Positions 2,629 to 29,045 of a DNA stretch of 29,045 nt are shown piece after piece. How positions within the stretch are numbered: position 1 is the stretch's first letter; every line of letters starts with the position of its first letter. Origin of the DNA: a virus; IMG/VR virus record IMGVR_UViG_3300026118_000034, positions 1-29,045 of that record. One strand, given 5' to 3'. The position numbers were made by a program, and so were the translations under genes. Under the pieces are notes generated by a model. It did not search any database and had not been told where the DNA came from. It saw only the letters and a list, made by a program, of their open reading frames with translations.

Positions 2629-3128
2629 TGTCAGGCGAAACGGTACTGAGCGTGGTCGGCAATCTGACCGCTGATCCCGAACTGCGCTTCACCCAGTCCG
2701 GCGCGGCGGTGACGTCCTTCACGGTCGCCTCGACCCCCCGCACTTTCGATCGCCAGTCCGGTGAGTGGAAGGACGGCGAGGCGCTGTTCCTGCGGTGCAA
2801 CGTGTGGCGGCAGGTCGCCGAGAACGTGGCCGAGTCGCTCGCGCGAGGGTCCCGCGTGCTCGTGACGGGGCGGCTGCGCCAGCGCTCGTTCGAGACGAAG
2901 GAGGGCGAGAAGCGCACGGTTGTCGAGCTGGAGGTCGACGAGATCGGCCCCTCGCTGCGCTACGTCACCGCGAAGATCAACAAGGTGACCCGTGGCGATG
3001 GAGGCGGCGGCGGATACGGCGGCCGTCAGCAGCAGTCGACCCCGTCCGCCCCTGACCCTTGGGCCACCGCCGAGCCGCCCAGGCAGTCCGCGCAGCAGCA
3101 GACCTGGCCCGACGAGCCTCCGTTCTGA
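2628..3128 (+). CDS. ssb: Single-stranded DNA-binding protein
   Basis: 166 residues. Residues 1-112 form the OB fold of bacterial-type [23 protein letters not shown] at the N-terminus, [18 protein letters not shown] in the middle and [20 protein letters not shown] with the conserved Gly-Arg-Leu strand. A Gly/Gln/Pro-rich linker (about 125-155) leads to an acidic tip ending DEPPF, the usual docking peptide for replication and repair partners. The protein coats single-stranded phage DNA during replication and recombination. It is the last gene of the first operon; a 17-base-pair inverted repeat follows eight bases after the stop. Confidence 0.97.
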
Positions 3129-3135
3129 CCTGCGA

Positions 3136-3180
3136 CGATCCCCACAATACCCCTGCTCATGTCGGGTATTGTGGGGATCG
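3136..3180. repeat. 17-bp perfect inverted repeat after ssb
   Basis: Arms CGATCCCCACAATACCC (3136-3152) and its exact complement (3164-3180) flank an 11-base loop. It would form a strong hairpin in RNA and could end the ssb operon, but no U-run follows; instead the -35 box of the next promoter begins three bases later. It could therefore also be a protein-binding site for the adjacent promoter. Confidence 0.85.
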
Positions 3181-3182
3181 AC

Positions 3183-3212
3183 TTGACACCCCCACTTTCC
3201 AGGGGGCATGAT
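3183..3212 (+). promoter_or_regulatory. Promoter P1 with dyad spacer (copy 1 of 3)
   Basis: TTGACA (3183-3188) is a perfect -35 box; CATGAT (3207-3212) sits at an 18-base distance. The spacer is itself a dyad, CCCCCACTTTCCAGGGGG. The same TTGACACCCCCA start and G-tract before the -10 box recur at 6821 and, on the other strand, at 27909. After it a leader of about 36 bases ends in a GAACGGAGAACC purine-rich ribosome-binding region before the ATG at 3249. It likely drives the genes from 3249 to 6804. Confidence 0.8.
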
Positions 3213-3248
3213 GGCTTCACAACGGGAACAACGAGAACGGAGAACCCG

Positions 3249-3788
3249 ATGAAGCGCGTGCAGCACTGCGACGTCAAGCAGGGCTTGACGATCAAGCTGC
3301 CCAATCATGGTCCGACCGGGCGCTGGGCGACCATCGACCGGGTGATCGAGCAGCGCCCCGACACGGACAAGCAGGCCGCCTCGGCTCTCGTGGTCGTCTC
3401 CTACCTGAACGGCAGAGACTCGGGCAAGCTGCTCCAGATACTCCTGTATGCCCGCGTCGACGGCTACGAGGTCCACCCGAACAGCTCCATGATCGCGGCC
3501 CGGCGCCACCATCGCGCCGGTCGCGCCGACGTCAAGAACATCGTCCTGCGCGACTACGTGATCAAGTACTCGGCCGTGGACCGCGTCGACAGCCAGGGCG
3601 AGACCTGCGGCTACTGCCAGGCTCGCCCGGTCACCGTCAACATCTACGCGCACTGCCACGTCGCCGCCAGCAGGCGGGCCGAGGAAAACACCTGGCCCAC
3701 GTGCGACCGGTGCGCGCTGCACTCCATCGACCAGGTCGAGGACGTCGACCCGAGTTACGCCATCACCATCGAGAGGACGGGTCCCTGA
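3249..3788 (+). CDS. Zinc-ribbon-like hypothetical protein
   Basis: 179 residues, ATG with GGAGAA upstream; upstream in-frame starts lie inside the promoter and are rejected. The N-terminal 110 residues look like mixed alpha/beta with no known motif. The C-terminal part carries CGYC (C120, C123), HCH (135-137) and CDRCALH (C152, C155, H158), a spacing expected for one or two structural zinc sites. It is the first gene behind promoter P1, so probably highly and early expressed. Function unknown; a regulator or host-interaction protein would fit a first-in-operon zinc protein, but this is inference. Confidence 0.8.
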   Translation: MKRVQHCDVKQGLTIKLPNHGPTGRWATIDRVIEQRPDTDKQAASALVVVSYLNGRDSGKLLQILLYARVDGYEVHPNSSMIAARRHHRAGRADVKNIVLRDYVIKYSAVDRVDSQGETCGYCQARPVTVNIYAHCHVAASRRAEENTWPTCDRCALHSIDQVEDVDPSYAITIERTGP

Positions 3789-4252
3789 TGACACCCAAGC
3801 AGGGTCTTGACCCGGTCGACGCGCTGCCCCCGACCAGCAGGAAGGTTCTGGAGAGCGCGCCCGACCACGGCCGATACCTGGTCCCGTACACGGTCGGCCG
3901 CCTGTTCTTCGAGCGGGGATGGGGTGACCACCTGGGCAAGAGCAGCTCGCGCACCGGTAGCGGTGTACCAACCTCGCTGTTCCAGCTCAACGAACAGGGG
4001 CTCAAGGCTGTCCAGGTGGCCCGCCAGCGCTCTCGCGTCGCAGTGGAGGACGTCACCTACTCCGCAGTGCACGAGGCCACCACAGGCGTGATCGGGGACC
4101 TGCTGGAGGACTACTCGGTGGACTTCCTCATCCGCGAGGCCGAGGCACTGATCGTCCGCATCCAGGAGGCCGGACAGTCGGACGCCGGTGCGCGCGGCTA
4201 TCGGGACGCCCTGGTTGAGCACCGCGACGCGCAGGCGAGCGTGTCGGCATGA
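3788..4252 (+). CDS. Hypothetical protein
   Basis: 154 residues from ATG in a TGATG overlap with the previous gene. The segment LFFERGWGDHLGKSSSRTGS around residues 39-58 is followed by SLFQLNEQGLKAVQVARQRS, which could be a helix-turn-helix-like piece, and a C-terminal helical part (DFLIREAEALIVRIQEAGQS). No family recognised. The alternative upstream starts (from 3701) run through the preceding gene and are not needed. Confidence 0.72.
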   Translation: MTPKQGLDPVDALPPTSRKVLESAPDHGRYLVPYTVGRLFFERGWGDHLGKSSSRTGSGVPTSLFQLNEQGLKAVQVARQRSRVAVEDVTYSAVHEATTGVIGDLLEDYSVDFLIREAEALIVRIQEAGQSDAGARGYRDALVEHRDAQASVSA

Positions 4253-6561: not shown

Positions 6562-6804
6562 ATGAACAAGCGTCAGGCACTGGGCGCGCTCGCCGGTGAC
6601 CTCCTGCTGAAGCTGCGGGAGATGCGGGAGCATGACGAACGGTACGGCTCGTATCACGCTCAGACCGGCACGCCGGACCACGACAGGATGATGCTGGCTC
6701 ACGAAGAGCTGGAGTGGCGGCTGATGAAGATCGAAAGTCCCACCCTGCGGCGAAAGCCCAAGTCACGGCCGCCGGACCCGAACCAGGTTGCTCTGTTCGA
6801 GTGA
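6562..6804 (+). CDS. Small charged helical protein
   Basis: 80 residues, ATG with GGGGAGG upstream. Nearly all helix in the first 60 residues (LLLKLREMREHDERYGSYHA, MMLAHEELEWRLMKIES), then a basic Pro/Lys-rich tail ending DPNQVALFE. That ending resembles a short sliding-clamp-binding (PIP-like) peptide of the form Q-x-x-L-F, which would link it to the host beta clamp; this is an inference from five residues. Last gene of the P1 operon. Confidence 0.65.
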   Translation: MNKRQALGALAGDLLLKLREMREHDERYGSYHAQTGTPDHDRMMLAHEELEWRLMKIESPTLRRKPKSRPPDPNQVALFE

Positions 6805-6806
6805 CG

Positions 6807-6849
6807 TCATGCCCCATGAGTTGACACCCCCACCACTCATGGGGCATGA
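6807..6849. repeat. 14-bp inverted repeat spanning promoter P2
   Basis: Arms TCATGCCCCATGAG (6807-6820) and its exact complement (6836-6849). The left arm ends exactly where the -35 box of P2 begins, and the right arm covers the end of the spacer and most of the -10 box. This position is expected for an operator at which a dimeric regulator would block or shape promoter access. Confidence 0.8.
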
Positions 6850-6850
6850 T
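6821..6850 (+). promoter_or_regulatory. Promoter P2 with dyad spacer (copy 2 of 3)
   Basis: TTGACA (6821-6826), 18-base spacer beginning CCCCCA and ending GGGG, then CATGAT (6845-6850). It has the same boxes and same spacer length as P1. A 42-base leader containing CGAGAGGGAGAACCGA leads to the ATG at 6893. Confidence 0.8.
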
Positions 6851-6892
6851 GGTTTTACCAGCACAGAGGGACAACCGAGAGGGAGAACCGAA

Positions 6893-7537
6893 ATGGGCTA
6901 CCAGGCACCGTACGAGCGTATCGACTGGACGATCCCCCGCACCGACGAGGAGTGGACCACGCTCGCCGCCGAGCTGCGCGACAAGGCCAGGGACAACCGG
7001 CAGTCCGCCAGCGACAGCTTCGACCGCTGCGACACCGACGGGTTCATGAGCCAGTGGGCGGACGGCCTCACCGCTCGGGCCTACGAGTGCGCTGCCTCGA
7101 TCGCGGAGGAGCACGGCTGGATCGAGGTCAAGGCGCTGTTCACCCTCGACGGGCACTTCCTCACCGCCGAGCTGCGGGCGTCCCAGAACTACGGATGGGG
7201 GATGTACTGGGACGTCCCCGCCCAGCTGGCCGCTAAGCACGGCCTGGCCAAGCGGTACGTGAACGACCCCACCGCCGGATCGCCGGTGCGCCGCGCCAAG
7301 ACGCTGGCCAAGAAGGGTGTCGCGATCGGCATCCTGCGGGTCCGCCCGTACGTGACGATGGCGGGCAGCAACGCGACGAACGTGTCCGTGGTCGCGTGGC
7401 CCGATCGTGATGCCCTGGAGAATGGTCAGTTCGAGGTCGTGCGCACCAGCTGCGGTGATCTGCTGGACACCACCAAGGACCACTCGGACAAGTGGTTCTG
7501 CTGGACGCCGGAGGACCTGGCCGCGAAGCTGGCCTGA
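6893..7537 (+). CDS. Hypothetical protein with its own promoter
   Basis: 214 residues. ATG at 6893 is chosen because GAGGGAGAACC precedes it and in-frame starts further upstream lie within the promoter. Residues 10-90 are helical and charged (DEEWTTLAAELRDKARDNRQ, LTARAYECAASIAEEHGW); the second half is a beta-rich domain (VKALFTLDGHFLTAELRASQ, ATNVSVVAWPDRDALENGQF, DKWFCWTPEDLAAKLA). No recognised family. It forms a single-gene unit between promoter P2 and the convergent terminator at 7544-7581, so it is likely made in quantity and separately regulated. No similarity seen to the other first-in-operon genes at 3249 and 27841. Confidence 0.8.
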   Translation: MGYQAPYERIDWTIPRTDEEWTTLAAELRDKARDNRQSASDSFDRCDTDGFMSQWADGLTARAYECAASIAEEHGWIEVKALFTLDGHFLTAELRASQNYGWGMYWDVPAQLAAKHGLAKRYVNDPTAGSPVRRAKTLAKKGVAIGILRVRPYVTMAGSNATNVSVVAWPDRDALENGQFEVVRTSCGDLLDTTKDHSDKWFCWTPEDLAAKLA

Positions 7538-22912: not shown

Positions 22913-24073
22913 TCAGGTGGTGGCCGGGAGATCCACGGCCACGCCGTGCAGGACGCACGGGTCGAAGGTGGCCGCGTAAAACCGGTCCGCAGTCGTGTAG
23001 ATCTGGTTGTGCCGCTGGTCGACGAACGAGTTGACCGTGATGCGCGAGGTGCGCACCTCGACCGGTCCCGTCGCGTACATCCACAGGGCGTCGGCCTGCA
23101 CGGCGTCGTTCGGGTCGGTGCCGGGGTATCCGGCATCGGCGATGACGCGGGCGCCGGTCTTGGTGAACAGGCCAGTGCCGTTCTGCACGATCGAGTCGAG
23201 CATCAGCGGCACCAGGGTGATGGGCATGTGAATCCACACGTCCATGCCGAGCGAGCCGAGCTGACCACGTGCGGCCTGCTCCAGCGCGCCCAGCGCATGC
23301 AGTGGCTCATGCTTGCCCGCCACCACCTGCACACCGAGTCCGGCCGCCAGGCGGGCGTTGACCTGCCCGCTCGCCTCGGGCGTGTCGTACGGGTTCAGGT
23401 CGCTGTGCTCGCCGGTCCACAGCTCGCGGGCGATCGTCCACGAGGTGACGGCCTCCGCCTGGCGGCGAACGCGCGCCTCGTCCTCGGTCATGTCGCTATT
23501 GAGCGCCGGGCACGAGTCCTCGACCCGCAGCACGGGCGGCGAGTAGTAGACGGTGCCGGACGGGCCGACGCCGTAGGCCGCGCCGAACAGGTTGTAACCG
23601 GTCGTGGTGGTGGCAACGGCCACCGCCGGGGCGGTGCCGCCAGTCAGGCCAGCGGCGGACGCGGTCATCTGGACGACGTTGCCCATGCCAGCGCGGAACG
23701 TGACCACGTACGGCGTCGCGGGACCAGGGCCGCCAGTCACGGTCACATCGCCCGGGACCAGATTGCTCAGGTTCTCCAGAGCGGTCTGAACGGCCGCCGC
23801 CGCCGCGTTGTACGCGATGCCAGCGGTCGTCTGGCCCGAGTACGTGAGGGTGAACGTGCCGCCCGTCGGGTCGCCGGTGATCGTGACCGTCTGCACCTCG
23901 GAGATGTCTCCGCTCGCGCAGGCGTTGAACGAGCGCACCGACGTGCAGCGCTCGGGGCGCCACGCCATGCCCTGCGTCCAACGGTCATCGCCACTGGCGG
24001 GCGTGAGGGCCCATGCCGCCAGGCTGGACCGGGACGATGCTGCCTGGACCGGCTGAATCGGGGCGAACAACAT
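22913..24073 (-). CDS. Virion protein of unknown role with inserted domain
   Basis: 386 residues; ATG with GGAGGTGG upstream. Residues 58-159 carry the same 102-residue domain as the next gene. The remainder (VEDSCPALNSDMTEDEARVR, ALGALEQAARGQLGSLGMDV, VIADAGYPGTDPNDAV, LWMYATGPVEVRTSRITVNS, RFYAATFDPCVLHGVAV) has a pattern I have seen in structural proteins of actinophages encoded next to the capsid gene, with the A-D-A-G-Y-P-G-T and Y-A-T-G-P-V motifs conserved. The gene is directly downstream of the major capsid gene. Capsid decoration, vertex or tail-related roles are all possible; the family has no role I can state. Confidence 0.75.
   Translation of the reverse strand: MLFAPIQPVQAASSRSSLAAWALTPASGDDRWTQGMAWRPERCTSVRSFNACASGDISEVQTVTITGDPTGGTFTLTYSGQTTAGIAYNAAAAAVQTALENLSNLVPGDVTVTGGPGPATPYVVTFRAGMGNVVQMTASAAGLTGGTAPAVAVATTTTGYNLFGAAYGVGPSGTVYYSPPVLRVEDSCPALNSDMTEDEARVRRQAEAVTSWTIARELWTGEHSDLNPYDTPEASGQVNARLAAGLGVQVVAGKHEPLHALGALEQAARGQLGSLGMDVWIHMPITLVPLMLDSIVQNGTGLFTKTGARVIADAGYPGTDPNDAVQADALWMYATGPVEVRTSRITVNSFVDQRHNQIYTTADRFYAATFDPCVLHGVAVDLPATT
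23597..23902 (-). repeat. Shared 102-residue domain, copy in unknown virion protein
   Basis: Encodes residues 58-159, from EVQTVTITGDPTGGTFTLTY to GLTGGTAPAVAVATTTTG. The matching copy is at 22278-22583. Differences are concentrated in the stretch around PGPATPYVVTFRAGMGNV, while both ends are nearly identical. Confidence 0.85.
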
Positions 24074-24147
24074 TCACCCCACCTCCATTCGTGGAGCCAG
24101 GCCGCGCCGGGCGTCGGGCGGACCGGCGCGGCCTGGAGCTGGTCAGG

Positions 24148-25872
24148 TCAGTTAAGGATCGCGTTCAGGTCGCGGGTGGCGGCGCTCTGGCCGGTCACCT
24201 GGAGCTGGAACACGAGGTGCACGGACTCGATGCCACGGTGGGCAGCGGTCGCGAACTCCTCCCGGAACGTCTGGAAGCGGTTGACAGCGTTGAGCGCGCT
24301 GTCACGGACCAGGCCCATGTTCAGCTCGCCGCCGTCGAGGTACTTCCAGTCGCCCTCGCGGAAGATCAGCGTTGACACGGTGCCGATGTAGTTCGGCACC
24401 TCGGTGCCAGCGGCGGCCGTGGTGTAGGCCTGCGCCGGGACCACGATGTCCGGGGTCGGCTGCGTGATGTCGGCGGGGTCGATGCCGTCGAGGTGGAACG
24501 TCGGGTTGACGTTGCGACGACGGAACCAGTCCATGATCATCTCGTCCGCCACGGCCAGCGTGTCGAGGCCATCGCCGACCATCTGGCGGGCGACATCCAT
24601 GCGCAGGATGTCCTTCAGCCACAGCGGCAGGATCTGGCGCAGCGGCGCGTTGTCGCTCAGGCGGTGCACCGAGCGGTAGTAGGCGATGAACTTGTCCAGC
24701 GACACGAAGAAGTCGCGGGCCGCGCCGATCACGCGAGGCGTGTACAGCGGCTTGGACGCGTTGGTCAGCTGGGTCAGCAGCTTGTTCTCCGCGAAGCGCG
24801 CGAACGCCACGTCACCGGCCTGGATAACCGCGTCCATCAGCTCGGGGTCGAACTGCGTGGACATGTTCGAGAAGGTGAGGCAGTGGTAGACCGCCTCGAC
24901 GGTCGCCGTGACCGGGTCCGGGCAGTCGACCTCAAGGCACGACTTGGTGGGCAGCGGCGTGGTCTCGTCCATCGCCGGAGTCCAGTTGCCGATGCCGCCG
25001 GTCTGGGCCACGCCGTCGATCGCCGGGCGGTAGGTGATGCCGCCACGGTCCGCGCCGATCGGCGCGAGGGCGTCGCGCACCGGGCGGTCGGTGTCGCCGA
25101 TCACCGGGATGTCGTAGAGCGGGGTCACCGGGCCGCAGATACCGGCGGCGGTGAGCGCGTTCTCCTCGGCGGACCGGGAGCGCACCTCGTCCTCGACGCG
25201 GGACATCACCCGATTGACGGTGTAGCCGCTGTCCTTGCGGGAGACGAAGCGACCGGCGGCCTTGTAGCCATCCGCCCACTTGACGTTGACGAGGGTCGTC
25301 TTCGCGTACGGGTTGTGGATGGCCGCCTGGTTGGCGAACGCCGTGGCGATCTGCTCGCGGGCAACCTCGGGGTCCCTGTCGAGCGTGAGGCCGTTCTGGC
25401 CGGTCACGTTCGCGTTGATCTCCAGCGACTGGAACTCGCCCCGGTTGCGACGAGTGGTCAGGCCTGCCCCACCAAGAGGGCGGCGAGCGGAAGCGGTCAC
25501 GGTGTCGCCCCCTTCGGGCTTCTCGTCCTCCGGCTCGACGGCCGGGGGCTCTTCGGTGGCCAGCGTGGCGGGCGCTGCGGGCTGCTCGGGGATCTCCACC
25601 TCGGGCTGCTCCGGCTGCGCGGGCGGCTCGGGCTGCGCGGCCAGCTCGCCGATCATCGACAGATTGGCGGCGTACTCCGCGTTGACGCGGGCGCGCTCGT
25701 CCATCTGTCCACGGATGGCGGAGGCGGCATCCGCGAGGGCCTTCACCTGCGGTGCGGTCGTGGCGGTGGCGGGGCCCGTGAACGCTGCGGCCTGACCTGC
25801 GATCTCCGAGAGAGCGTCAGTCAGTTCCTGGTCCGTTGCCTCCGCCAGCCGATTCAGAATCTCCTCGTACAC
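24148..25872 (-). CDS. Major capsid protein with N-terminal scaffold-like domain
   Basis: 574 residues. GTG at 25872 is chosen because ACGGAG lies upstream and the sequence from there (VYEEILNRLAEATDQELTDA) is a typical start; the longer frame upstream is rejected. Residues 1-78 form charged helices (scaffold-like delta domain), 79-121 a Pro/Glu-rich linker, and from about 145 on the capsid fold: DPEVAREQIATAFANQAAIH, GYTVNRVMSRVEDEVRSRSA, LTFSNMSTQFDPELMDAVIQ, LLPLWLKDILRMDVARQM-type stretch (QILPLWLKDILRMDVARQMV), and VSTLIFREGDWKYLDGGELN. The ending VHLVFQLQVTGQSAATRDLN is typical. It forms the head shell, with the N-terminal part helping assembly and perhaps cut off later. Confidence 0.9.
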   Translation of the reverse strand: MYEEILNRLAEATDQELTDALSEIAGQAAAFTGPATATTAPQVKALADAASAIRGQMDERARVNAEYAANLSMIGELAAQPEPPAQPEQPEVEIPEQPAAPATLATEEPPAVEPEDEKPEGGDTVTASARRPLGGAGLTTRRNRGEFQSLEINANVTGQNGLTLDRDPEVAREQIATAFANQAAIHNPYAKTTLVNVKWADGYKAAGRFVSRKDSGYTVNRVMSRVEDEVRSRSAEENALTAAGICGPVTPLYDIPVIGDTDRPVRDALAPIGADRGGITYRPAIDGVAQTGGIGNWTPAMDETTPLPTKSCLEVDCPDPVTATVEAVYHCLTFSNMSTQFDPELMDAVIQAGDVAFARFAENKLLTQLTNASKPLYTPRVIGAARDFFVSLDKFIAYYRSVHRLSDNAPLRQILPLWLKDILRMDVARQMVGDGLDTLAVADEMIMDWFRRRNVNPTFHLDGIDPADITQPTPDIVVPAQAYTTAAAGTEVPNYIGTVSTLIFREGDWKYLDGGELNMGLVRDSALNAVNRFQTFREEFATAAHRGIESVHLVFQLQVTGQSAATRDLNAILN

Positions 25873-26030
25873 GAGGTTTCTCCGTTTCGTGTTGGACGGC
25901 TTGCACGGGGCTTGTCCACTCCAGCTAGGCCGGACCGCTCGGAGATCAGCTAGGCCGCTCCGTGCGGGGTCGTCCCCAACGTCGCGAAGCGTAGGCGCCG
26001 AGTTGCGCATGACGCCCGCGAGTTGCGCAC
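25873..26030 (-). promoter_or_regulatory. Capsid gene leader with two pairs of direct repeats
   Basis: The region between the terminator at 26031-26066 and the capsid start must hold the start of the leftward virion operon or be read through. It contains CGAGTTGCGCA twice (25999-26009 and 26019-26029, 20 bases apart) and CAGCTAGGCCG twice (25922-25932 and 25947-25957, 25 bases apart). No good TTGACA/TATAAT pair is visible on the minus strand. The repeats are candidate sites for a late activator or a phage sigma factor. Confidence 0.5.
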
Positions 26031-26066
26031 AAAAAGATCCCCCGCGCCACGTGGGTACGGGGGATC
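26031..26066 (-). terminator. Rho-independent terminator of the accessory operon
   Basis: Read on the minus strand: stem GATCCCCCG / CGGGGGATC (26066-26058 and 26044-26036) with a 13-base loop, followed directly by TTTTT (26035-26031). A classic leftward terminator that separates the accessory operon from the capsid operon. Confidence 0.88.
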
Positions 26067-26096
26067 AGGAGGTCCGCATCTCCTTGGCGGAGGCTA

Positions 26097-26657
26097 TCAG
26101 ACCTGCTCGTCCGGGAGGTCTTCGAGGGAGGGCATCACGTCCACGGTCTGCGTGCGGAAGTCGCAGACCCGCTCCGAGACGTGCACGGCGAGCATGGCCG
26201 CGTACTGCGCACGGGCGACGGACCACTGGTCCGGTTCGACCTTGCGCGTGTACGCGGTGTACGCCTTCACCGCGTCCTGGTGCTGCCCGGTGACGCCGGA
26301 GGCGAAGAGCGTGTTCACCAGGCGAATCTGCTCGCTGTGGTCGACGGTGCATTCGTCGTCGCCGCAGGTGGTGGTGATGTCGAACGGAGGGAACGGGATC
26401 CCCTGCTGGGACATCCGCTCGATCCACGTGGACAGCTCCCACACGTACGCGTGGCAGGCGTCCTCATTGCCCAGCGAGGTGATCCTCTTCGCCCACTCGT
26501 AGGAGGCGGCCAGGATGAGGCGGTGCTCGACCTGGTCATGAATGGGGACGGCCATGATTGCGAACGTCTCGACGGCGGCGTTGATCAGGCCGTGCGTCAT
26601 CTCGGCCGCCGCCTCGCTCACGGGGAACGGGTTGGTGGGTCGTACGTAGTCAGACAT
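26097..26657 (-). CDS. Hypothetical protein, last gene of accessory operon
   Basis: 186 residues; ATG with AGAGG upstream. Predicted helical, soluble: FPVSEAAAEMTHGLINAAVE, HRLILAASYEWAKRITSLGN, HAYVWELSTWIERMSQQGIP, then an acidic Cys-containing loop (TTTCGDDECTVDHSEQIRLV) and a further helical segment. The Cys/His cluster C-x4-C-x3-H may bind metal. No family recognised. It lies 30 bases upstream of the terminator at 26066, so it is expressed with the three genes above, not with the capsid operon. Confidence 0.75.
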   Translation of the reverse strand: MSDYVRPTNPFPVSEAAAEMTHGLINAAVETFAIMAVPIHDQVEHRLILAASYEWAKRITSLGNEDACHAYVWELSTWIERMSQQGIPFPPFDITTTCGDDECTVDHSEQIRLVNTLFASGVTGQHQDAVKAYTAYTRKVEPDQWSVARAQYAAMLAVHVSERVCDFRTQTVDVMPSLEDLPDEQV

Positions 26658-26679
26658 GCGGACCTCTCTGGTTTCGTTT

Positions 26680-27159
26680 CTACGGGTTCGCGGAGCCAGG
26701 GCACATCATCTTGGTGCCGCTGGTGGTCTCCACACTCCACGCCTCCGACCGCGCGCACTTCAGGCCGTCCCAAGAGACGGTCATGTCGACTGGACCGGGA
26801 GGGGCGACCGGCGACGCGACCGGCGGGGTGGTCGGTTCCGGTGTCGGCCATTCGTTCGGCGGCACCGGCGTGGTCTGGGTCGGCGGCTGCGGTGTCGTGG
26901 TCGACGTCTCAGGGTCGTCGGCGAGCACCACGGCGGGCGCCTGGGCAGCGGGGGGCGACGCGGCCTGAGTGGCACTCGTCGGCGGCGTGGCCAGCTGGAC
27001 GGGCGCCTCCAGCGACGCCGTGGCGGACGTGGACGAGGAGACCACCGGCGCGGTCTTCAGGTCGGCGCCGGGCTCATCACCGGCGGCGAACGCGGCGACG
27101 GTGGCCGCGAGCAAGGGAACGATGATCGCCCCCGCGAGCAGGGGCAGGGACTTCTTCAC
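26680..27159 (-). CDS. Secreted Thr/Pro-rich protein with C-terminal disulfide module
   Basis: 159 residues. GTG start with AGGAGT upstream. The N-terminus MKKSLPLLAGAIIVPLLAAT then VAAFAAGDEP is a clear Sec-type signal peptide with a likely cut after AFA; no lipobox Cys. Residues 30-120 are a long Ser/Thr/Pro/Ala linker (STTTPQPPTQTTPVPP, PEPTTPPVASPVAPP), like glycosylated or wall-spanning linkers. A short C-terminal module (126-159) has WDGLKC...SVETTSGTKMMC (C135 and C153), probably one disulfide. Role unknown; a phage-encoded exported protein beside the virion genes could act in superinfection exclusion or host surface change, which is inference. Confidence 0.8.
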   Translation of the reverse strand: MKKSLPLLAGAIIVPLLAATVAAFAAGDEPGADLKTAPVVSSSTSATASLEAPVQLATPPTSATQAASPPAAQAPAVVLADDPETSTTTPQPPTQTTPVPPNEWPTPEPTTPPVASPVAPPGPVDMTVSWDGLKCARSEAWSVETTSGTKMMCPGSANP

Positions 27160-27169
27160 GATTTGACTC

Positions 27170-27469
27170 CTAACGGGCTCGGTTGTGCGCAACGTTCTTC
27201 GCGCACTGCTTGTCGTGCAGCAAGTGAAAGCGGATTCCCCGCTCCAGCATGCCAGCACGCTGATTGCGGGTCTTGACCTGACCGGCGTGGTACTTCTCGC
27301 CGACCTTCGACAGCGCCCACTGGTCACTCGGGTACTCGTTCGTGAGGTCCTCCTCGACCTCGACCAGGATGGTGACCGGCTGCCCCTTGCTCATGCGAGC
27401 GGTGACGGCCGGGACCACCATCCCCTGACACTTCTGGCAGACCTTGACGTCCGCCTCGGGGACCTGCAT
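27170..27469 (-). CDS. Small zinc-finger-like protein
   Basis: 99 residues; ATG with GAGGAGG upstream. CQKC (C11, C14) at the N-terminus pairs with H82, H85 and C89 near the C-terminus (RFHLLHDKQC), a spacing seen in small actinophage proteins in which a CxxC opens and a H-F-x-x-C-like motif closes one zinc site around a short beta sheet. The middle has a strand pair (QPVTILVEVEEDLTNEYPSD). Function unknown, possibly regulatory or nucleic-acid binding. Second gene of the P3 operon, ten bases before the secreted protein. Confidence 0.72.
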   Translation of the reverse strand: MQVPEADVKVCQKCQGMVVPAVTARMSKGQPVTILVEVEEDLTNEYPSDQWALSKVGEKYHAGQVKTRNQRAGMLERGIRFHLLHDKQCAKNVAHNRAR

Positions 27470-27481
27470 CCCCGCCTCCTC

Positions 27482-27841
27482 TCAGTTGTGGGTCAGGCAA
27501 CGCCCTTCCTCGAACACGATGCCGCCGCAGCTCGCCCCCCAGGTCTCCACCGCCGTGGCTCCACACTCCGTCTCGCCGTCTGGGGTGGTGACAGCCACGG
27601 TGCACACCTTGCGGCCGTAGGGCGCCTGGCGGACTGGGAACACCGGTGTGCGGGCGGCGGCGAACTGGGCGTCGATCAGCAGGGCCCGCCCATGCAGCTC
27701 CTCGACGATTGCATTCATCCCCGAGGTCATGAGTTCGATGTCCTGCCCCTTGGCGAGCGCGGCGCCGAAAAGCTGGAACGTGTCGGTCAGGTACGCGTCG
27801 GTGTCGGTGGCGAATTCCCAGCTGCTGTCGTAGCGGCCCAT
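27482..27841 (-). CDS. Hypothetical Cys-containing protein, first gene of accessory operon
   Basis: 119 residues; ATG at 27841 with GAGGGAGAACC upstream, the same leader as at 6893. The longer frame runs into the promoter. Residues 1-65 are helical (WEFATDTDAYLTDTFQLFGA, GMNAIVEELHGRALLIDAQF); residues 75-119 form a small domain with four Cys (80, 93, 105, 115) and a final His (CTVAVTTPDGETECGATAVE, CGGIVF, CLTHN), a possible zinc site. Directly behind promoter P3. No family recognised. Confidence 0.75.
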   Translation of the reverse strand: MGRYDSSWEFATDTDAYLTDTFQLFGAALAKGQDIELMTSGMNAIVEELHGRALLIDAQFAAARTPVFPVRQAPYGRKVCTVAVTTPDGETECGATAVETWGASCGGIVFEEGRCLTHN

Positions 27842-27880
27842 CTCGGTTCTCCCTCTCGGTGGTCCCTGCTGATGTCGAGA

Positions 27881-27909
27881 ACAGTACCCCGAATCCATGG
27901 GGGTGTCAA
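27881..27909 (-). promoter_or_regulatory. Promoter P3 with dyad spacer (copy 3 of 3)
   Basis: On the minus strand: TTGACA (27909-27904), then a 17-base spacer beginning CCCCCA and ending GGGG, then TACTGT (27886-27881). The first 12 bases, TTGACACCCCCA, are identical to P1 and P2, and the leader has CACCGAGAGGGAGAACCGAG, almost the same as at P2. It drives the four leftward accessory genes. Confidence 0.8.
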
Positions 27910-27942
27910 ATACTTCCGCCGCACTGCTATCGTCGCAGTTGG

Positions 27943-27966
27943 CCCGCTACGGGCTCCCGATACGGG
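27943..27966. repeat. Tandem dyads CCCGnTACGGG between divergent genes
   Basis: CCCGCTACGGG (27943-27953) and CCCGATACGGG (27956-27966), two bases apart. Each is a near-palindrome CCCG-nta-CGGG. They lie in front of the rightward gene at 27988 and downstream of P3 for the opposite direction, so they are a candidate operator for the rightward gene. Confidence 0.6.
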
Positions 27967-27987
27967 CGAACAGAACGGAGAACCAGC

Positions 27988-28416
27988 ATGCCTCATGAGC
28001 GGATCTACTCCCTCGACGGCGACCCCGATCACGCCAACTGCGCGCAGGTCACATGGGGGCACCCATCCTCGCCGAGCAACACCGGCCCCGGCCACGGCAA
28101 CGACGAGGGCCACGTGATGGTCGTGGTCGAACGGCCTGGCACCCCCGCCCGCATGGCCTGCTCGATCGAGGAGATCCGGCGCGGCCTGCCTGAGCTGCTG
28201 AACACCATCCGCGAGTGGGACTACGCGGGTGGAGCCGATGCCGAGTCCGACGACCACCTGGTGGAGCGCCTCATCGAGGAGCATGGCGAGAAGCTCTCCT
28301 ACGCGTTCGGCGCCCCTCTGGACCTCCTGGCCGTCACGATCGACCGCAAGGGCTGCAACAAGATGATCGCTGCGCTGCGTCGTGGTCGTGACGCGGCGTT
28401 TGGCAAGGACGAGTAG
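27988..28416 (+). CDS. Hypothetical protein, rightward gene of accessory module
   Basis: 142 residues; ATG with GAACGGAGAACC upstream, the same leader ending as at 3249. The only rightward gene within the structural region. N-terminus RIYSLDGDPDHANCAQVTWG then a strand EGHVMVVVERPG; the second half is helical and acidic (ACSIEEIRRGLPELLNTIRE, SDDHLVERLIEEHGEKLSYA). No family recognised. It is set back to back with the P3 operon and closed by an 18-base-pair terminator, so it is an independent unit, as expected for a moron-type gene. Confidence 0.78.
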   Translation: MPHERIYSLDGDPDHANCAQVTWGHPSSPSNTGPGHGNDEGHVMVVVERPGTPARMACSIEEIRRGLPELLNTIREWDYAGGADAESDDHLVERLIEEHGEKLSYAFGAPLDLLAVTIDRKGCNKMIAALRRGRDAAFGKDE

Positions 28417-28450
28417 GCCCAGGCCTGCCAGGCACCAGCCAGGACCACGC

Positions 28451-28491
28451 CACGAGGCCCCCGCGAGATCGACTCTCGCGGGGGCCTCGTG
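28451..28491. terminator. 18-bp bidirectional terminator hairpin
   Basis: Perfect stem CACGAGGCCCCCGCGAGA / TCTCGCGGGGGCCTCGTG (28451-28468 and 28474-28491) with a five-base loop, between the convergent genes ending at 28416 (+) and 28499 (-). The strongest hairpin of the window; it closes the right side of the accessory module. Confidence 0.9.
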
Positions 28492-28498
28492 CTGACGG

Positions 28499-28729
28499 TC
28501 AGTCCTTCGTGGGCTCGAACGTGAGCGTGTAGGCGCCCGGCTCGAAGTTCTCCGCGACGTCGCCCCTGACGTTCATCGTCAGCTGGAGGGTGGGTGTCGC
28601 CTCCGCCCACTCGCGGTTGCGGTCGTCCTGGTAGTCCGGCTCGAAGCGCAGCGTCACCTGGCTGGTGCCCAAGGGCTCCTTGCTCGCCAGCTTCACCTTC
28701 GCCGTGGTCTTGCGCGTCTTCTCCGCCAT
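28499..28729 (-). CDS. Small actinophage hypothetical protein (MAEKTRKTTAKV type)
   Basis: 76 residues; ATG with GAGGAGGA upstream. The start MAEKTRKTTAKVKLASKEPL and the following VTLRFEPDYQDDRNREWAEA then TPTLQLTMNVRGDVAENFEP are strands of a small beta-sandwich that I recall as a conserved short protein of actinophages near head genes; role unknown. It follows the gene at 28744 by 14 bases and its transcript meets the 18-bp terminator just after the stop. Confidence 0.8.
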   Translation of the reverse strand: MAEKTRKTTAKVKLASKEPLGTSQVTLRFEPDYQDDRNREWAEATPTLQLTMNVRGDVAENFEPGAYTLTFEPTKD

Positions 28730-28743
28730 GATCTCCTCCTCGT

Positions 28744-29045
28744 TCAGCTCTTGGCCTTCTTGGCTTCCCACTCGGCTACCGCCGCACACGCCTCGGCGCG
28801 AGAGCCCGCGTTGACCTCCTGCGAGCCGGGGAAGTTCGTGTCGCCAGTGGAACACATCTTCTTCGCCGCGTTGACCGCCGTGGCGATGGCGCGCGACTCG
28901 TCCATGCCCTTCTCCTGCAAGTGCTTGGCGATGCGCTTGATGTACCTCGGCAGGCCGCCCGCCTTCTGCACCCAGTTGGCCAGCTCGGCGCCATGCAGCA
29001 CCAGCAGGAGATCCACCTCGGCGGCGAACTGAACCACGTCAGCCG
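28744..29045 (-). CDS. C-terminal part or whole of a small virion-associated protein
   Basis: The frame is open to the right edge; a GTG at 29037 is possible but has no visible ribosome-binding site, so the gene may be longer. The visible piece contains LPRYIKRIAKHLQEKGMDES, RAIATAVNAAKKMC and NAGSRAEACAAVAEWEAKKA, a helical module (about 80 residues) that I recall from the ends of several actinophage head proteins and as stand-alone small proteins. The module's role is unknown. It is encoded just upstream of the MAEKTRK-type gene. Confidence 0.7.
   Translation of the reverse strand, partial: ADVVQFAAEVDLLLVLHGAELANWVQKAGGLPRYIKRIAKHLQEKGMDESRAIATAVNAAKKMCSTGDTNFPGSQEVNAGSRAEACAAVAEWEAKKAKS

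Follow-up and report, generated by a model that had tools for sequence, protein, structure and literature searches.

The window examined here, a virus-derived stretch of 29,045 nucleotides (IMG/VR record IMGVR_UViG_3300026118_000034, positions 1 to 29,045, one strand), carries near its right end a block of five genes at 26031-28491, whose leftward genes are preceded by one copy of a promoter-leader element of about 70 bp that recurs elsewhere in the window and in related phages. Four of the genes run leftward with spacings of 12, 10 and 22 bp, and the fifth, 27988-28416, stands back to back with them (Table 1). An earlier annotation made from the letters alone (the sequence-only reading) had described this arrangement as a four-gene operon beside a single divergent gene, lodged between structural genes, and both descriptions are upheld: all five open reading frames (ORFs) are retained by a hexamer-based gene caller written for this analysis, and the block sits within virion genes, as judged from a head maturation protease, of which the C-terminal part lies on its right, and the major capsid gene on its left. 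Except for 27988-28416, the block genes share the orientation of the surrounding virion genes, and the GC content of the block (0.65-0.71) is no different from that of the flanks.

Among 50,697 phage records, no near match to window 24000-29045 was found, and the capsid protein gave 762 matches, all below 60% identity and mostly to actinobacteriophages. The comparisons below use other IMG/VR records. G002 (57,950 bp) is mostly 92-98% identical to the window and is probably circular, because window 19122-19241 matches both of its ends. L005 (5,991 bp, 3,224 bp of it identical to the window) and G005 (9,477 bp, extending L005 rightward, with 2,866 bp identical) are records of their own that bear the names of other samples; we took them to represent the window's phage population because the overlaps are identical. 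L010 (7,036 bp) has about 70% identity, and G004 (57,035 bp) is a distant relative with a 127-bp end repeat, end-overlapping and probably circular. The close-pair comparison is that of the window plus G005 with G002.

Table 1. Features of the window discussed in the text (aa, amino acids; HMM, hidden Markov model).
Feature	Position	Strand	Remarks
Element copy, P3 of the sequence-only reading	27845-27913	-	HMM 55.8 bits, E 6e-16; itself among the 17 seeds
Second element copy	6817-6889	+	15-bp perfect inverted repeat around -35
Third element copy	3179-3246	+	HMM 28.8 bits, E 1.7e-7
214-aa gene directly behind the 6817-6889 element	6893-7537	+	unrelated 87-aa gene in G002; identity stops at start codon
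179-aa gene behind the 3179-3246 element	3249-3788	+	53% aa identity to G002 allele
First gene of leftward operon, 119 aa, orphan	27482-27841	-	no family match
99-aa CxxC...H...C protein, possible zinc binder	27170-27469	-	96% G002, 53% L010, ~25% G004
159-aa probably exported protein	26680-27159	-	signal-peptide-like start, P/T/S-rich linker, conserved C-terminal stretch with two Cys
186-aa protein, conserved CGDxECxxDH motif (zinc-like)	26097-26657	-	99% G002, 48% L010
Intrinsic terminator, U5 tail	26031-26066	-	kept in G002 and L010
142-aa divergent gene, phage protein family	27988-28416	+	MPxExI ... VGW ... LDRxGINRLIRxLRRARDAAFGxDE; phrog_10659 at C-terminus, E 1.5e-6
18-bp perfect hairpin, convergent gap	28451-28491		no U tract on either strand
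76-aa gene	28499-28729	-	in window and L010, absent from G002; phrog_6978 at C-terminus, E 1.1e-8
Head maturation protease, C-terminal part, right flank	28744-29045	-	maps to G002 45889-48282; phrog_18402, E 8e-68
Major capsid protein, left flank, start codon uncertain	24148-26010	-	phrog_777, E 1e-58

The element consists of TTGACA, a spacer of 17-18 bp with a C...G dyad, a -10 box and a leader ending in AGGGAGAACC directly before an ATG. In the copy that precedes the leftward operon, the -35 box TTGACA (27909-27904) is followed by a 17-bp spacer of the form CCCCC-N8-GGGG, the -10 box TACTGT (27886-27881) and a leader with the same AGGGAGAACC ending. An HMM built from 17 seeds, which match it by construction, found at E<1e-3 18 copies in G002, three in the window, three in G005, two in L010 and four in G004, with E-values down to 4e-20. 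When combined with a looser pattern search it located copies at the same threshold at eight further loci in six contigs, two of them sharing an identical copy. In G002 an ATG starts 1-4 nt after the element in 18 of 18 copies, and 20 Markov shuffles of this 58-kb genome gave no HMM hit at E<1e-3. The 18 near-copies in G002 support the proposal of the sequence-only reading that this probable promoter drives the leftward operon, and the plus-strand copies at 3179-3246 and 6817-6889 bear out its remark that the same promoter occurs in the far rightward region.

Of the 43 copies listed, which come from ten virus contigs, 42 follow one promoter-leader grammar. They combine TTGACA, or something close to it, with a spacer containing runs of C and of G (18 bp long in 31 copies, 17 bp in 11) and a hexamer of the form TANNNT or CANNNT; the start codon follows 33-44 nt later, behind a GGGAGA-type ribosome site. 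A long inverted repeat (P<=0.01, judged against 200 mononucleotide shuffles only) accompanies 18 of the 33 copies examined; its arms vary in sequence and in 4 of the 18 it lies entirely upstream of the -35 box. The repeats of the window copy at 6817 and its orthologue at G002 12037 are related by a compensatory change. Two of the 18 G002 copies lie inside the virion operon, between the protease and capsid genes. The same promoter grammar is also seen in L046, L047, L052 (IMGVR 3300049458_000003), L049, L060, L061 and L063, several with GGGAGACCC leaders, which suggests a wide and divergent element family. In addition, the string GTTCGAGTGA is common to the upstream DNA of several elements, just before the inverted repeat or the -35 box (window 6795-6804, and before G002 35224, G002 38266 and G004 56375). 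With two element copies as DNA queries, the 50,697 phage records returned one irrelevant 29-bp match and nothing else. In bacterial genomes the pattern matched twice, each time in a Micromonospora chromosome and ahead of the same sugar-binding-protein-like gene; these matches were taken as chance (HMM E about 0.6). A literature search, with subscription papers mostly beyond its reach, found no description of this element.

Gene replacement is concentrated behind the elements. In the close-pair comparison, five of seven element-first genes lack a homologue, against one of 42 other called genes (Fisher P 6e-5), a contrast that is perhaps partly one of gene class because many of the 42 are structural or replication genes. 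Of seven rearranged segments, five have a boundary no more than 20 bp from one of the eight elements; random placement puts a mean of 0.2 segments at elements and never reached five in 20,000 trials, and a null model of random gene starts gives a mean of 1.0 (P 0.0003). Three of those five segments are swaps behind a kept element, and two are gains or losses of an element together with its gene. In the clearest swap (cassette c) the breakpoint falls at the start codon, and G002 38661-38965 is a clean unit of element and gene that is missing in G005. An eighth site, at 3249-3788, stands outside the count of seven genes because the gene caller picked an antisense ORF there: the element has 86-100% DNA identity and the flanks mostly 88-98%, and the gene has 44-72% over most of its length, recovering at its end. 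The antisense ORF, 2631-3794 on the minus strand, is long and outscored the real-looking plus-strand gene, and automatic annotation may misassign this locus.

The same pattern is seen within the block. Its three distal leftward genes have homologues in the same order and place in G002 (96-99% amino acid identity) and L010 (46-53%), and 27988-28416 has one in the same place in both (92% and 70%). In G004 a homologue of 27988-28416 again lies antisense behind the protease, and the capsid gene is preceded by a CxxC gene resembling 27170-27469. The first leftward gene, in contrast, is unrelated in three lineages, with 119 aa in the window, 56 in G002 and 79 in L010. Since both G002 and L010 retain the rightward gene and three of the leftward ones at this place, the block is not present or absent as a unit. 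What is present or absent between adjacent genes is the single cassette, as at G002 48289-48723 and G002 38661-38965. Behind the protease, G002 and L010 have an element with a gene of 116-119 aa (66% identical) that is absent from the window; we infer that this absence, like that of the 76-aa gene from G002, reflects loss from an L010-like state. The 27988-28416 family has members in eight further viral contigs and weakly includes Microbacterium phage Leaf gp57 (E 0.08), and in some contigs its members lie near portal, MuF or protease genes. Judged by these homologues, its product is better seen as a conserved phage protein than as cargo.

The leftward operon ends in the U-tailed terminator that the sequence-only reading had placed at 26066-26031. 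The folding energy of the region is -24.6 kcal/mol (z -3.0, equalled by 1 of 200 shuffles). UUUUU follows the stem, and the terminator is conserved in G002 and L010, with a compensatory change in the latter. The 18-bp hairpin said to close the rightward gene is indeed a perfect stem (z -7.7 and -7.5 on the two strands, with none of 200 shuffles as good) but lacks a U tract on either strand; hairpins of unrelated sequence occupy its site in G002, L010 and G004. An Rfam search of the window gave no match. On the minus strand at 26001-26029, in the gap that separates the terminator from the capsid gene, lies a tandem direct repeat of TGCGCAACT(C), 20 bp apart. G002 and L010 share this repeat, which has no other occurrence in the window, G002, L010 or G004; it may be a site for a late promoter or an activator, or else belong to a longer N-terminus of the capsid protein. 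The divergent gene has CCCGNTACGGG twice in tandem in its leader (27943-27966, plus strand); this pair is also kept in G002 and L010 and might serve as an operator of that gene. A start-associated sequence before 27988 (exact GGAGAACC in the window) was dropped as a candidate, as it is not conserved in G002 or L010.

The earlier assignment of one exported and two possible zinc proteins to the operon agrees with what is conserved. The N-terminus of 27159-26680, with KK, a hydrophobic stretch and an AxA site in the window, G002 and L010, would suit export, and the zinc-like motifs of 27469-27170 and 26657-26097 are kept in the same three genomes, consistent with zinc binding. Structure predictions for 26097-26657 and 27988-28416 were unusable (mean predicted local distance difference test scores of 41.6 and 46.4). 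Next to the block, the head maturation protease of G002 (45889-48282) also matches the RNA-ligase family phrog_2659 (E 1.5e-37), an unusual domain partner.

On balance, we favor the view that the block is an accessory operon with switches of its own, tied into a regulon that spans the genome, and that the element doubles as a recombination seam. Each copy would give its accessory gene the same host-sigma-type promoter and a strong start-associated ribosome site, and terminators before and behind would insulate the block from late virion transcription. The near-identity of the many copies could let them serve as seams: recombination that enters through a copy would replace the gene directly behind it, so that the first gene turns over fast while the later genes of the operon, like the divergent gene, are retained. 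The Erf-like annealing protein encoded by G002 (phrog_155, E 6e-14) could carry out such recombination. Expression apart from the virion operon, as the sequence-only reading proposed, would fit the block's own promoter, its own terminators and the sharing of this promoter with other genes. A bolder extension, to which we give rather little credence, is that in uncultured actinobacterial phages the element of about 70 bp (promoter, hairpin and start) acts as a plug-in socket: any gene arriving behind it would immediately join one co-regulated early regulon, and the phage's annealing recombinase would use the shared sequence for exchanging cassettes between phages and between sites.

Several observations weigh against the seam and regulon. 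Within the compared DNA, two of the eight genes that come first after an element are conserved (91-96% amino acid identity), and two of the seven rearranged segments have no element. The association with turnover comes from one close pair, to which L010 and G004 add few sites. Proteins downstream of elements were compared across genomes (leaving out 2 of 45 elements for which the script's rule yielded no protein downstream), and for the same cassette gene behind elements at differing positions only weak partial similarities appeared (37-41% over 54-104 aa). The block's own copy also has only the 5-bp spacer dyad (P 0.74), without the long inverted repeat of about half the copies. That the copies are active promoters, are used early and are regulated together, and that the swaps arise by homologous recombination at the element, we infer from the sequence.

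Other explanations were weighed against the same evidence. That the element arises by chance in GC-rich DNA with ordinary promoters and ribosome sites might seem to follow from a generic promoter/terminator scan of 25000-29045, which returned no promoter and no terminator; this is refuted by the E-values, the empty shuffles and the invariable ATG described above. The scan misses the block promoter because TACTGT agrees with TATAAT at 3 of 6 positions, and it misses the 26066-26031 terminator because that structure falls outside its rule. A less easily dismissed idea, though still an unlikely one, is that the element is only regulatory: small early accessory genes would turn over everywhere, and the element would be retained simply as lying upstream of the replaced DNA. 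As this would predict, orphans are common among such small genes (eight PHROG families were matched among 27 element-first proteins), but the excess of missing genes behind elements and the gene-start null speak for a specific link, with the reservation about gene classes given above. We are similarly doubtful that the hairpins around the -35 box are central and that the element is a terminator-promoter composite, similar to the promoter early stem-loops discussed below, insulating each cassette from the preceding gene. The significant inverted repeats with differing arms and the compensatory change between window 6817 and G002 12037 favor such a composite, whereas the lone spacer dyad of the block's copy, the hairpins that lack a U tract (several) or lie wholly upstream of the -35 box, and the frequent absence of an inverted repeat from copies touching the preceding gene all argue against it.

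The sequence-only reading had preferred a moron-type cargo island, with 26031-28491 gained whole, expressed early or in the lysogen, and possibly encoding superinfection exclusion or anti-defence functions. In lambdoid phages, morons are genes with their own promoter and terminator among virion genes. The block, as read from its sequence, resembles them in this respect, and its small proteins without assigned function, one of them probably exported, would also suit cargo. The resemblance ends there: the block is not present or absent whole, its composition is not odd, and its promoter is common to about 20 genes. The proposed check, presence or absence of exactly this interval in relatives, showed that G002 and L010 keep the block and that G004 has part of it, which refutes the island as a recent unit among the sampled relatives. 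Tyrosine/serine integrase Pfam models matched nothing in G002 or G004, so lysogenic expression is unlikely and early lytic expression would be the more likely alternative. A role in exclusion or defence is likewise unsupported, since the five block proteins gave no match to any functional, anti-defence or exclusion family (the PADLOC scan took in 27482-27841 only). Taken together, we consider the cargo island improbable. The 27 cassette proteins gave no PADLOC match and one weak Pfam match, with HNH families in one G004 cassette. Elsewhere in G002, a counter-defence gene for a T7 gp5.9-type RecBCD inhibitor (23744-23857; PF25708, E 1.9e-15) adjoins a DnaC-like helicase loader; no such inhibitor was found in the window, G004 or G005.

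If the accessory regulon with its recombination seam is real, it offers a simple sequence rule to spot exchangeable genes in phage genomes with unmatched proteins, and the same rule would flag likely candidates for host takeover or counter-defence. The closest known systems are of two kinds. According to the reports on them, the start-associated sequences (SAS) and extended start-associated sequences (ESAS) of mycobacteriophages in Cluster K and Microbacterium phages in Cluster EF occur in many copies per genome directly before start codons and are conserved beyond the ribosome site (PMC3203893, PMC11373665, PMC7302621, PMC12699233), and their upstream part has SigA-like -35 and -10 boxes at 17-18 bp, with inverted repeats in about half (PMC3203893, PMC11373665, PMC7302621); repeats of Cluster O phages are described in PMC4351075. 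Our element is likewise multi-copy, lies a few nucleotides from start codons and is conserved beyond the ribosome site (18 of 18 in G002), and it has a SigA-like promoter with 17-18 bp spacing and long inverted repeats in 18 of 33 copies, although not in the block's own. It differs in its leader, AGGGAGAACC, where the SAS/ESAS consensus is GGGATAGGAGCCC (that of SAS) or GGGAAAGGACCCC; in having promoter and leader together at the listed copies, a fixed C/G spacer dyad and long inverted repeats with variable arms; in not being confined to the non-structural half (2 of 18 G002 copies are among virion genes); and in its link to gene replacement.

The second kind comprises the promoter early stem-loops (PeSLs) of T4-like phages and similar motifs of the haloarchaeal virus HGTV-1, which, as summarized in PMC4503421 and PMC3950731 (describing Arbiol 2010 and Comeau 2014), are repeated before genes and have been proposed to mediate shuffling. 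Like a PeSL, our element is a repeated putative promoter with a stem-loop at the borders of shuffled genes, as seen in one close genome pair and with the stem-loop in about half of the copies. Unlike PeSLs, it belongs to different phages (the capsid matches actinobacteriophages at less than 60% identity) and has a different sequence with no T4-type early promoter; its stem-loop, if present, mostly overlaps the -35 box, it carries a start-associated leader, and its seam is at the start codon. The element thus matches neither SAS/ESAS nor PeSLs by sequence; its anatomy appears to work like that of SAS/ESAS and its link to gene exchange like that of PeSLs. If this is correct, it would tie the start-associated promoter repeats of actinobacteriophages to the promoter-stem-loop gene shuffling of T4-like phages, two phenomena so far described separately.

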